From Bacteroidota bacterium (GTDB taxonomy: Bacteria > Bacteroidota > Bacteroidia > AKYH767-A > JAHEYN01): a stretch of 64,000 nucleotides of DNA. The DNA lies in NCBI GenBank assembly GCA_023251555.1, contig JAHEYN010000014.1, positions 1 to 64,000 of the forward strand. Direction: 5' to 3'. Within the stretch, counting starts at the first letter, position 1. The number at the start of each line of letters is the position of its first letter. The notes beneath the pieces were generated by a model, which did not search any database, was not told where the DNA came from, and saw only the letters and a list, made by a program, of their open reading frames with translations. The translations under genes were made by a program, and so were the position numbers. Positions 53,189 through 56,929 of this stretch are shown in pieces.

Positions 53189-53425
53189 ATGCAGCTAGAC
53201 ATCCTCACCCCGGACCAGAAACTCTTTTCAGGCGAAGTAAGCTCAGTGCTTGTGCCCGGGAAATCGGGTATCTTCGAAGTGCTTGAAGACCACGCCCCTG
53301 TTATCTCCACACTATCCAAAGGACAGGTACGCGTACAACCAAAAACAGGAGAGAAACAGCTTTTCGATATCAAAGGCGGAGTGATCGAAGTACTCCGGAA
53401 TAAAGTCGTGGTGCTGGCGGAATAA
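53189..53425 (+). CDS. atpC: F-type ATP synthase subunit epsilon, short form
   Basis: 78 residues from the ATG at 53189, four bases after atpD. A longer frame from 53087 overlaps atpD and is rejected. Only the N-terminal beta-sandwich is present (LDILTPDQKLFSGEVSSVLV, GIFEVLEDHAPVI, FDIKGGVIEVLRNKVVVLAE). The C-terminal helical hairpin that inhibits ATP hydrolysis in many bacteria is absent, as in other Bacteroidota. Confidence 0.95.
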   Translation: MQLDILTPDQKLFSGEVSSVLVPGKSGIFEVLEDHAPVISTLSKGQVRVQPKTGEKQLFDIKGGVIEVLRNKVVVLAE

Positions 53426-53696
53426 ATATACAACGCCCGAAACTTCGGTTCTGAATTATCCTGTTTTTGGGAGAGGTCAGTTTACTATACCTGCGTAAGG
53501 AGCAAGAAATGAAGTGCACCAAAGAGCCTTCTGCTTGATCTATAAATATGAAATTCCTAAATTAGAGAGAGATTTACCTGAACCTGTACAAATGAAAAAG
53601 GTGCTGCTAACCACCCCAAAAAGGGCGGATACCTGAACCTGTGACCGTAAACAGTACGGGTATATACAAGTTAGCGGCAAACGGACAAACATTACA
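53426..53696. other. Gene-free left end of an accessory island
   Basis: Contains a 13-nt direct repeat TACCTGAACCTGT at 53575-53587 and 53630-53642. A plus-strand frame without a usable start (53498-53635) reads EIPKLERDLPEPVQMKKV and might be a decayed gene. No promoter or RNA gene was recognised. The sequence ends in the inverted repeat ACAAGTTAGCGGC. Confidence 0.35.
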
Positions 53697-54259
53697 ATGA
53701 AGAAAAAACGAAAAGCAGAATTATGTGACGCAATCATTGCAAAATTCAAGGGTGACGTTAGTCATAAATGGACCGACCTTCACGGGAAAGACTATTTGTT
53801 TAATGACCTAATTTTAGACTCAGAATGTGAAGGTGAGCCAACGAAACAGAAAAAGTATTCTATTCTTCAACCAATAATAAACTTCCTATTAGACGAAGGA
53901 GTTTTAAGAAGAAATGACGTGGGAAAACCAACTGCTTTTCTAAACCTCACAGACAAAGGCAATGCTATTTATGGAGATTTTAAAAGTCTCGGTTATGTCA
54001 CGAAAAGAAAAGAGATTGTTCGTAAAAGAAACTGGCAGATATTTCTTGGTTTTATTAGTATTTCAACATTCATAATGGTTGGTTTTAGGTTTTACAACGA
54101 CTTTATGCAACGACAAAATAAAACTGTTCAGCCAATAATGGAAATCAAACAGGACAAAAATATTTTAGATTCTGTACAGACAAATAAAGACTCTATCTTA
54201 AAACAAACGCCAATTAAAAAGTAATATACTTAAACGCCAGCCACTAACAGCGGGCTTGT
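53666..54259. repeat. Inverted repeats bracketing a single gene (cassette-like)
   Basis: ACAAG-TTAGCGGC (53666-53678) before the gene pairs with GCCACTAA (54240-54247) and CTTGT (54255-54259) after it, with one mismatch and a 7-nt bulge. The central TTAG/CTAA plus imperfect palindromy recall integron attC recombination sites, but the exact attC core consensus is not met. Confidence 0.35.
53697..54224 (+). CDS. Small membrane protein with an N-terminal winged-helix-like region
   Basis: 175 residues. Residues 1-105 are polar and include LQPIINFLLDEGVLRRNDVG and FLNLTDKGNAIYGDF, a pattern like a winged helix. One membrane segment follows at about 114-131 (IFLGFISISTFIMVGF), then a polar tail rich in Lys, Asn and Gln. 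Function unknown. Base composition is visibly AT-richer than the flanking housekeeping genes, and the gene is bracketed by inverted repeats, which suggests acquisition by transfer. Confidence 0.6.
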   Translation: MKKKRKAELCDAIIAKFKGDVSHKWTDLHGKDYLFNDLILDSECEGEPTKQKKYSILQPIINFLLDEGVLRRNDVGKPTAFLNLTDKGNAIYGDFKSLGYVTKRKEIVRKRNWQIFLGFISISTFIMVGFRFYNDFMQRQNKTVQPIMEIKQDKNILDSVQTNKDSILKQTPIKK

Positions 54260-54388
54260 GTTCTAACCCCCTATTAGTTAGACATAATTTCAAAAACAGT
54301 TTCGACCTTAGGTTGATTTTTGATTTGATTTTCGGTGTAAAGATTAAGTAAAAGCAGTAAATAAAATATTAAAATGAATGTAATCTCG

Positions 54389-54405
54389 TATCGCGATTTG
54401 CGATA
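54389..54405. promoter_or_regulatory. Operator-like palindrome of the HTH/NTase pair
   Basis: TATCGC (54389-54394) and GCGATA (54400-54405) are perfect inverted arms with a 5-base spacer, just upstream of the -7 element at 54413. This is a fitting site for autorepression by the HTH protein encoded downstream. Confidence 0.5.
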
Positions 54406-54412
54406 TTATGTG

Positions 54413-54420
54413 TATATTTG
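54413..54420 (+). promoter_or_regulatory. Promoter -7 element for the HTH/NTase pair
   Basis: TATATTTG, an exact TAnnTTTG match, 18 bases before the ATG at 54439 and 7 bases after the palindrome. Confidence 0.55.
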
Positions 54421-54438
54421 CTTTAAATTTACACCAAA

Positions 54439-54951
54439 ATGAAAGAGCACAGGGGTATGCGCCCGCAAGACATAGTAGTGTTGCTGAAGATTTCATCTAA
54501 AGGAAATAAGCAATGGTTAATAAAGGATATTGCAGCCGATTTAGGGATCAGCCAAAGTGAAGTAAGTGAATCACTTCATCGCTCAGCACAGGCAGGACTG
54601 ATTAGTGAGAGCAAACGCATGCTCATGAAAAATGCTTTGATTGATTTTTTAATATACGGATTAAAATATGTGTACCCCCAGCATCCCGGCCCTGTTATAC
54701 GCGGTATCCCAACCGCTCATTCTGCTCCCCCGCTCAATAAAGAAATTGTGAGCAAAGAAGTTTATGTTTGGCCTTATGCCGAAGGCAAAGCCCGCGGGCA
54801 GCGTATTGAACCCCTGCATAAGTCTGTTCCACTTGCGTCGCTTAAGGATAAGAAATTATATGAGCTCCTTGCGCTTGCGGATGCTTTGCGTGTAGGCAAA
54901 GCCCGTGAACGGAATATTGCAATAGAAGAACTGGTAAAAAGAATTAAATGA
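54439..54951 (+). CDS. Winged-helix (MarR/IclR-like) DNA-binding protein, putative antitoxin/regulator
   Basis: 170 residues. A helix-turn-helix occupies about 9-62: QDIVVLLKISSKGNKQWLIK, then DIAADLGISQSEVSESLHRS as the recognition region and AGLISE. The C-terminal 100 residues (YVYPQHPGPVIRGIPTAHSA, then VWPYAEGKARGQ) have no recognised family. It overlaps the nucleotidyltransferase gene by four bases, and a palindrome plus promoter lie directly upstream. The arrangement is that of a self-regulated antitoxin with its toxin. This role is inferred from organisation, not shown. Confidence 0.75.
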   Translation: MKEHRGMRPQDIVVLLKISSKGNKQWLIKDIAADLGISQSEVSESLHRSAQAGLISESKRMLMKNALIDFLIYGLKYVYPQHPGPVIRGIPTAHSAPPLNKEIVSKEVYVWPYAEGKARGQRIEPLHKSVPLASLKDKKLYELLALADALRVGKARERNIAIEELVKRIK

Positions 54952-55640
54952 AGAATACCATCATAAATAGAAAAGTAATTACAAAAATTGCCATTGCACT
55001 TGGCGAACTTAACGAACGCGTTGTGTATGTTGGCGGTGCAGTGGTTGGCTTATATGCCAATGACCCTGCTGCCGATGATGTGCGCCCCACAGGAGACCTG
55101 GATATCAGCATGGAAATTGCTTCCCTGAGTGAACTCGAAAAACTGAGAGAAGAATTAAACAAAAAAGGATTTGTCCAAAACTCGGATGACAAAGTAATAT
55201 GCCGTTTCCGGTACGATGATGTAAAAGTGGATGTAATGGCAACCAAAGAAGTTGGATGGGCTCCCGCAAACAAATGGTTCAAGCCGGGGTTTAAGAATCT
55301 GCAGGAAGTTAATATAGATGGACACAAAATCCGGATTCTACCATTACCATATTTCCTTGCCACTAAAATTTCGGCATTTCGCGACCGGGGTAAAAACGAT
55401 CCACGCACCAGTAAAGATTTTGAAGACATTACCTATTTGCTGGATACCCGAACCGATTTGGTTGAAGAAATCACTCATGCCCCTGCTGATGCGAAAAAAT
55501 ATTTATTGACAGAATTCAAAAAAGTACTTGCTGACTCTGTTTTAAAGGAAGCCCTATTGGGAAACCTTTATTATGAAACTAAGGAAAGCCGGTACATTAA
55601 GATCATTGATAAATTACAAATACTAACGAGTGTCGTTTAA
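54948..55640 (+). CDS. Nucleotidyltransferase-fold protein (AbiEii/MenT-like), putative toxin
   Basis: 230 residues. NTase pattern: glycines at 29-30 in VYVGGAVVGLY, then the acidic pair D50-L-D52 in RPTGDLDISME, and a third carboxylate D95 in DVKVDVMATKE. KISAFRDRGKNDPRTSKDFEDI (in part) resembles the downstream helix of DUF1814/AbiEii-type proteins. Such NTases in two-gene operons with HTH partners can be toxins of type IV toxin-antitoxin or abortive-infection systems that modify tRNA. Whether this one does so is unknown. It overlaps the HTH gene by ATGA. Confidence 0.75.
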   Translation: MKNTIINRKVITKIAIALGELNERVVYVGGAVVGLYANDPAADDVRPTGDLDISMEIASLSELEKLREELNKKGFVQNSDDKVICRFRYDDVKVDVMATKEVGWAPANKWFKPGFKNLQEVNIDGHKIRILPLPYFLATKISAFRDRGKNDPRTSKDFEDITYLLDTRTDLVEEITHAPADAKKYLLTEFKKVLADSVLKEALLGNLYYETKESRYIKIIDKLQILTSVV

Positions 55641-55746
55641 GGAAGACCGTGAAGTGATTTCTAATCCGCCACTTTGCAAACCCTCGCACCGTTAAAATCA
55701 AGTTTCAATTTTACCCGGACAATACATATAGAATCGGTATTATTGT

Positions 55747-55754
55747 TATTTTTG
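55747..55754 (+). promoter_or_regulatory. Promoter -7 element for hmgA
   Basis: TATTTTTG, an exact TAnnTTTG match, 17 bases before the ATG at 55772. Confidence 0.5.
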
Positions 55755-55771
55755 CCTGAAAACAGAGAGTC

Positions 55772-56929
55772 ATGCCGCAATACCATATTCTGGGCCAGGT
55801 CCCTCACAAACGTCATACGGTTTTTAAAAAACCGGACGGGACTCTTTATGCCGAAGAGCTTGTTTCCAGCGAAGGCTTTTCCAGTGTGTATTCCCTTATT
55901 TATCACTGCCATCCCCCTACACTTATTAAAGAAACCGGAAAGCCTTATTCCGCCGAGCCTAAGATCGCCTGCCAGCGCCACATGTGCCACGAAAGCTTTG
56001 AAGGCTTCCACATCGCACCGGAAAAGGATTACCTGAAGAGCAGGAAAGCCATACTCGTAAACGATGACCTGCATATTTCCCTTGCCGCACCTGCATCTTC
56101 AACAAAAGACTATTTCTTTAAAAATGCAGATGCGGATGAAGTGATCTTTGTCCACGAAGGCTCGGGGAAAATCAGCACCATATATGGAAGTATAACATTC
56201 TCCTATGGAGATTACCTCGTAATTCCAAGAGGTACCATCTACCAGATCTTTTTTGACACCCCGGCCAACCGGCTGCTTATCACAGAATCCTTCAGCCCCG
56301 TTGAAACCTGCAAAAGATACCGGAACGAATACGGACAACTGCTGGAGCATTCTCCCTACTGCGAAAGGGATATCCGTAAACCGCAGAACCTCGAAACCCA
56401 TGATGAAAAAGGCGATTTTCTTGTCCTGATAAAAAAACAGGGTATGATTTACCCGTATACTTATGCTTCCCATCCTTTTGACGCCATCGGTTGGGACGGG
56501 AATCTCTACCCCTGGGCATTGTCCATCCATGATTTTGAACCCATTACCGGGAGGCTACACCAGCCCCCCCCCGTACACCAGACCTTCGAAGCAAGAAACT
56601 ATGTTATCTGCTCGTTCGTTCCCCGCCTCTTTGATTACCACCCCCAGGCAATTCCCGCCCCGTATAATCACAGTAATATTGACTCGGACGAAGTCCTCTA
56701 TTACGTAGAAGGGGAATTCATGAGCCGGAAGAATGTCTCCAAAGGCATGATTACCCTCCATCCTGCAGGGATACCCCACGGACCTCACCCGGGCACCGTA
56801 GAAAAAAGCATAGGCGCAAAGGAAACAAAAGAACTTGCAGTGATGATAGATACCTTCAAGCCCCTGTACCTGACAGAAGATGCACTCTCCATTAAAAATA
56901 AAAATTACTATAAATCCTGGATAGAGTGA
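55772..56929 (+). CDS. hmgA: Homogentisate 1,2-dioxygenase
   Basis: Opens the aromatic ring of homogentisate to maleylacetoacetate in tyrosine and phenylalanine breakdown. 385 residues of cupin fold. Family text: HKRHTVFKKPDGTLYAEEL, VFVHEGSGKISTIYG, YLVIPRGTIYQIFF and YPYTYASHPFDAIGWDGNLY. The iron site is in HSNIDSDEVLYYVEGEF (His and Glu ligands) and HPAGIPHGPHPG. It stands alone: no fah, maiA or hppD is adjacent. Confidence 0.94.
   Translation: MPQYHILGQVPHKRHTVFKKPDGTLYAEELVSSEGFSSVYSLIYHCHPPTLIKETGKPYSAEPKIACQRHMCHESFEGFHIAPEKDYLKSRKAILVNDDLHISLAAPASSTKDYFFKNADADEVIFVHEGSGKISTIYGSITFSYGDYLVIPRGTIYQIFFDTPANRLLITESFSPVETCKRYRNEYGQLLEHSPYCERDIRKPQNLETHDEKGDFLVLIKKQGMIYPYTYASHPFDAIGWDGNLYPWALSIHDFEPITGRLHQPPPVHQTFEARNYVICSFVPRLFDYHPQAIPAPYNHSNIDSDEVLYYVEGEFMSRKNVSKGMITLHPAGIPHGPHPGTVEKSIGAKETKELAVMIDTFKPLYLTEDALSIKNKNYYKSWIE

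Follow-up and report, generated by a model that had tools for sequence, protein, structure and literature searches.

What is encoded by a compact gene pair, a winged-helix (wHTH) DNA-binding protein followed by a nucleotidyltransferase (NTase), that lies among the housekeeping genes of a Bacteroidota bacterium? The window, by which we mean the whole 64,000-nucleotide stretch of DNA that we analysed, comes from a 2.84 Mb assembly of 55 contigs in which the HTH gene is present as a single copy. A preliminary description had suggested that the pair might be a variant of the type IV NTase systems, and this suggestion is supported by homology, motifs, operator and neighbourhood, with relatives adding a PP2C gene. 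We consider it probable that the locus is an autoregulated, two-gene toxin-antitoxin module of AbiE/MenT (DUF1814) type and a two-gene version of the PADLOC candidate PDC-M21.

Layout and setting of the gene pair

As read from the DNA, the locus is a two-gene unit with a conserved operator and an intact NTase active site. Its features are as follows.

54389 to 54405, no strand assigned: predicted operator TATCGC-N5-GCGATA, a perfect palindrome 33 bp 5' of the HTH start codon.
54413 to 54420, plus strand: -7 element TATATTTG (TAnnTTTG) of the Bacteroidota type, directly read, just 3' of the operator.
54439 to 54951, plus strand: HTH gene, 170 aa, winged-helix DNA-binding protein (PADLOC PDC-M21A), proposed autorepressor and antitoxin.
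54948 to 54951, plus strand: ATGA gene overlap, read from the sequence, a likely site of translational coupling.
54948 to 55640, plus strand: NTase gene, 230 aa, DUF1814-type nucleotidyltransferase (PADLOC PDC-M21B), proposed toxin.

The ATGA overlap of the winged-helix and NTase reading frames, part of the original proposal, is borne out at 54948-54951, and homologous loci likewise retain a short overlap or close spacing of the two genes. On one side the pair is flanked by the end of an ATP synthase operon (atpD; atpC at 53189-53425) and on the other by a homogentisate 1,2-dioxygenase-like gene; it is this gene, and not a PP2C gene, that follows the NTase. The pair had been placed in an AT-richer island between housekeeping genes. 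The island exists, with a G+C content of 0.39 over 53430-55700 compared to 0.49-0.50 in the 5-kb flanks, but most of the AT excess falls in an upstream open reading frame and the spacer (0.31-0.33) and less in the gene pair (0.40-0.44).

That reading frame (53697-54224, 175 aa, G+C 0.33), just 5' of the module, encodes a hydrophobic, membrane-like segment and had no match in Pfam, NCBIfam or PADLOC. An Rfam scan of 53400-55800 found no RNA family. We also considered a 'cassette' repeat array beside the pair (CACTAACAGCGGGCTTG at 54242), which is unsupported because the CACTAACAGCGGGCTTG flank is present in a single copy in the genome.

The HTH/NTase pair was absent from one other genome of the same family that we examined. 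In the relatives examined from the order, the DNA within 1.5 kb of atpC contained neither the pair nor the dioxygenase gene that follows it in the window, and a clean insertion point can therefore not be defined. The AT-rich island near an apparently foreign reading frame (53697-54224), together with the absence of the pair from the other family genome, could be taken to mean that the locus is a functionless, decayed or chance insertion within a housekeeping region. However, neither reading frame is broken, the overlap and the operator are preserved and no catalytic residue is missing, and we regard such an origin as very improbable.

The nucleotidyltransferase and its winged-helix partner

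Both proteins match the PDC-M21 models of PADLOC-DB across most of their length. The NTase matched PDC-M21B (PDLC04516) at 1.5e-52, and an HMM search, proposed earlier as a check of its family, placed it above the cut-off for Pfam AbiEii (PF08843; 26.5 bits, cut-off 22.5). Its motif I is G29G30, motif II is R46-x-T48-x-D50-x-D52, followed by the third acidic residue D95, motif III is K140..R147 and motif IV is KD157xxD160. Residues G29, R46, T48, D50, D52, D95, K140, R147, D157 and D160 were invariant in all 27 homologues compared, which were drawn from the window's phylum, Balneolota, cyanobacteria, Deinococcota, Acidobacteriota and Pseudomonadota. The GG (residues 29-30), D50-x-D52 and D95 noticed in the preliminary description are present, with G29, D50, D52 and D95 invariant in 27/27, and the loss of acidic residues across the family, which it had named as evidence that would count against the proposal, was not seen. 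Motif III, K-I-S-A-F-R-D-R, is of the COG4849-type KLxAaxxR except at its second residue. Toxicity of AbiEii requires G49, R63, D67, D69, K173, R180 and D192, in motifs I-IV (PMC3985639), and counterparts of all these motifs are present in the window NTase. Judged by these residues, its active site is intact.

With a profile of 16 NTases, the best solved relative was MenT1 (8an4/8an5/8rr5; E = 0.001), the significant similarity being confined to the N-terminal third of the protein. In this alignment R-x-T-x-D-x-D lies in register, with T48 equivalent to T39, D50 to D41 and D52 to D43. Structure models were built on 4-5 sequences. A Foldseek search with the NTase model, which is of moderate confidence, returned other pol-beta NTases as best matches, namely a fungal NTase-like protein, ANT(2'')-Ia, CCA-adding enzymes and poly(A) polymerase, with MenT not among them.

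The match to the aminoglycoside NTase ANT(2'')-Ia, which in this model stands beside tRNA NTases, would be compatible with an NTase that is an HTH-regulated modifying enzyme or immune effector rather than a toxin, for example a small-molecule modifier like ANT(2'')-Ia, and the occurrence of solo HTH regulators (see below) also favours this. By contrast, motifs III and IV, which are specific to AbiEii, do not vary among the homologues, MenT1 is the relative indicated by the sequence profile, and the strict pairing and small-plasmid carriage described below fit an addiction module. We therefore consider a modifying enzyme unlikely.

The HTH protein matched PDC-M21A (PDLC04515) at 6.8e-51 over residues 22-169. 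Its C-terminal 100 residues, said at first to match no known family, fall within this model. By contrast, the early judgement that the protein is not AbiEi holds: Pfam and PADLOC searches gave no AbiEi family match, with only sub-threshold HTH matches in Pfam and, across the searches, weak matches of ArsR/MarR/Lrs14 type, and hhalign against one AbiEi gave a probability of 0.3%, which rules out an AbiEi identity. The structure model comprises a wHTH, a middle of low confidence (77-124), from which we read no function, and three C-terminal helices; solved relatives match the wHTH part alone. Sequence conservation is higher in the HTH family than in the NTase, which is unusual for an antitoxin and counts against a toxin-antitoxin reading.

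Operator, pairing and carriers

The perfect TATCGC-N5-GCGATA palindrome reported in front of the pair is present at 54389-54405. The window holds no second copy, even if one mismatch is tolerated (0.05 expected), and the exact form of the palindrome is found once in the entire 2.84 Mb genome. Taken alone, such a palindrome is unremarkable for an AT-rich spacer of 214 bp; some perfect 6-bp arm pair occurred in 65% of simulated spacers of this kind, and a perfect 6-bp arm pair with at least 3 G/C in 8%. What gives the palindrome significance is that its core is conserved in front of homologous genes far above expectation. The core TCGC-N5-GCGA was exact in 12 of 38 regions upstream of homologues from several phyla, lying 26-107 bp 5' of the homologous HTH genes, and was present with one mismatch in 7 more. 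The corresponding null for exact sites had a mean of 0.13 and a maximum of 2 in 300 simulations, and ten control palindromes occurred 0-1 times in the same upstream regions. With 12/38 found and 0.13 expected, a chance palindrome is excluded. TCGC-N5-GCGA is retained by the solo HTH genes L006 and L012 too. In Alphaproteobacteria a different palindrome, TGTCC..GGACA, occupies the equivalent place, and further lineages have others there (TTCCA..TGGAA and TTTCATAT-N4-ATATGAAA). Conserved or lineage-specific palindromes at this position are what an autoregulated DNA-binding protein predicts.

The promoter is less secure. In Bacteroidota, promoters usually have 17-23 bp between the -33 and -7 elements. 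The -7 element described as perfect, TATATTTG, is indeed present at 54413-54420, but the window has 21 TAnnTTTG sites on this strand, and a TTTG -33 element is missing at 17-23 bp from TATATTTG. As a promoter element it is thus only partly supported.

The distribution of the pair across the phylum is patchy. Among 297 genomes the HTH family was found in 18 and full-strength NTase matches in 9, and every one of the 9 strong NTase matches lies directly behind an HTH gene. A control genome, that of Corynebacterium glutamicum, had matches to both PDC-M21A and PDC-M21B. Homologues that occur only as single housekeeping genes had been named as an outcome that would speak against a module; for the NTase this is not what we found, whereas the HTH gene does occur alone. 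For the remaining 9 of the 18 HTH genes no NTase was detected (L016 among them begins at the edge of a contig). These solo genes show that the HTH protein can serve in a capacity that does not involve the NTase, a point against the toxin-antitoxin reading. On plasmids, the HTH protein was found in 122 records and the NTase in 109, and among the matches listed the HTH gene was directly upstream of the NTase in 30 of the 30 records with both. Carriers include circular 8-kb plasmids, the Acinetobacter examples being about 8 kb, and neighbours of the homologues include integrases, transposases, restriction genes and other toxin-antitoxin genes.

Some solo HTH genes have features of their own. At L006 (385-2019) a solo PDC-M21A gene with a TTCGC-N5-GCGAA operator is followed in the same direction by genes for a 113-aa protein and a zeta-toxin-like protein. 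Most paired forms have an RExxLA stretch near the HTH C-terminus; it is missing from the solo genes of one genus (g78; L011, L012, L013 and L017), which perhaps represent a domesticated regulator.

No match to the pair was found in 50,697 phage records, and a phage origin is accordingly not supported. Three IMG/VR contigs carry the HTH gene, and two of these also carry the NTase among phage-tail-like genes; searches of IMG/VR with the NTase gave no match. At L052 (4583-5762) and L053 (1634-2819), both viral contigs, the PDC-M21AB pair lies amid phage-tail or injection-apparatus-like genes. On the viral contig of L051 (148-672) a solo PDC-M21A gene adjoins the terminase large subunit, and no NTase was found on this 38.6-kb contig, which may be a fragment. 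The L051 protein is a candidate phage-borne antitoxin or repressor mimic.

Phosphatase genes in relatives and comparison with known systems

PDC-M21 usually consists of three genes. The window pair has the A and directly downstream B components and no third component, PDC-M21C (PP2C); PDC-M21C had no match in the window or in the whole source genome, which makes the locus a two-gene variant. PP2C is also missing from all nine pairs of the phylum and from the cyanobacterial, Deinococcus and Acidobacteria examples. On proteobacterial plasmids a PP2C-type phosphatase gene that matches PDC-M21C lies 3' of the NTase, often overlapping it, and an Agrobacterium plasmid carries one such three-gene operon; among the plasmid records listed with both genes it immediately follows the NTase in 44 of 45 and is 169 bp away in the 45th. 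Putative metal-binding aspartates (D23, D40-G41, D113, D184 and D211) are invariant in 7 PP2C sequences. In a phylogeny the distribution of PP2C-bearing NTases is not random, a pattern compatible with one origin or two; the tree labels an Azotobacter locus as two-gene, yet there is a short PDC-M21C match there.

Individual proteobacterial loci with a PP2C gene after the NTase are L043, L046, L048, L050, L088, L089, L090 and L091; the gene is short in L091, and near L045 it is apparently interrupted. On the Legionella plasmid L047 (3683-4501) a calcineurin-like metallophosphoesterase takes the place of PP2C, possibly a replacement by an unrelated phosphatase.

In the mechanism that we propose, the HTH protein would dimerise on the palindrome just 5' of the -7 element and repress its own operon. 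Free NTase would add nucleotides to tRNA 3' ends, so that translation stops. The C-terminal part of the HTH protein would neutralise the NTase, most likely through binding that triggers auto-phosphorylation of the active-site Thr48, and plain sequestration may also contribute. In proteobacterial relatives the toxin would be rearmed by the PP2C Ser/Thr phosphatase, which would remove the phosphate; the window locus lacks this phosphatase. The module would stabilise mobile DNA and may serve as abortive phage defence.

The phosphorylation of T48 is a tentative step, to which we give somewhat less than an even chance. A Ser/Thr phospho-acceptor two residues before the DxD, here T48, aligns with MenT1 T39 and is present in 27/27 homologues, and in MenT1 T39 is phosphorylated upon MenA1 binding, the MenT3 equivalent being S78 (PMC11375011). 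No such phosphorylation was seen in MenT4. Because this motif is kept by the whole NTase class, the invariance of T48 alone is no proof of phospho-regulation. For TglT, only slow dephosphorylation was seen, by the housekeeping PstP in vitro (PMC7205606; PMC11541572), and a 'currently unidentified phosphatase' that would reverse MenT3/TglT inactivation was put forward by the TglT authors (PMC7205606).

A toxin-antitoxin module could do without phosphorylation if the HTH protein only repressed transcription or sequestered the NTase (type II- or IV-like) and PP2C acted elsewhere, for example in a host kinase pathway. The strong conservation of the operators, the finding that MenA1 binding still neutralises MenT1 T39A (PMC11375011) and the lack of a phosphatase gene in the window locus and other two-gene relatives all agree with this, and we hold it to be a serious possibility, if not quite an even one. 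It is hard to reconcile with the listed plasmid records, where a Ser/Thr phosphatase gene immediately follows the NTase in 44 of 45, and with an unrelated calcineurin-like phosphoesterase at the equivalent Legionella position.

The broader idea, which we consider doubtful, is that the family forms a phospho-switch class: the antitoxin would trigger the NTase to phosphorylate itself at a conserved active-site Thr, and an operon phosphatase (PP2C, or the calcineurin-like enzyme in Legionella) would undo this and rearm the toxin. It is similarly doubtful that the two-gene form in the window would then be the version without a built-in switch. Under such a scheme phages may counter the system with a solo antitoxin copy.

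The AbiE/MenT class of NTase toxins is widespread, and the MenT/AbiE toxins, to which the window NTase is related, block protein synthesis. A family with a Ser/Thr phosphatase behind the same kind of toxin makes the MenT3/TglT phosphatase question directly testable, with two-gene members such as the window locus as a natural control. If the proposal is correct, the operon phosphatase could be the missing 'on switch' for this class of toxin and may reactivate it. The conserved operator offers an easy binding assay across the family. The worth of the module thus lies in this operator, in a non-AbiEi, antitoxin-like partner beside a known class of toxin, and in the phosphatase of its relatives.

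By its profile matches, the pair is already catalogued as the defence candidate PDC-M21 and does not form a new category. PADLOC PDC entries are predicted, non-validated phage-defence candidates from 'guilt by embedding' (PMC10855318), and it is from this listing that the pair is a candidate for anti-phage defence; we found no mention of PDC-M21 in the collection of open-access papers searched. The locus resembles HEPN/MNT (HepT/MntA) in being a two-gene module with a pol-beta-type NTase. In that system the NTase serves as antitoxin to a HEPN RNase (PMC7641770), whereas here it is paired with a wHTH protein and there is no HEPN protein. Compared to MenAT1 and MenAT3/TakA-TglT of M. tuberculosis (type II/VII), the NTase is in register with MenT1, with T48 matching T39. 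However, the HTH partner is unlike MenA1 in size and architecture and has no MenA3/AbiEi-type family match, and some relatives of the window NTase have an operon phosphatase, whereas that of MenT3 is described as unidentified (PMC7205606). Finally, although its partner has no AbiEi (COG5340-type) domain and the C-terminal 100 residues belong to another family, the locus shares with AbiE an AbiEii/DUF1814 NTase with motifs I-IV, a wHTH partner, a predicted inverted-repeat operator and two adjacent genes.
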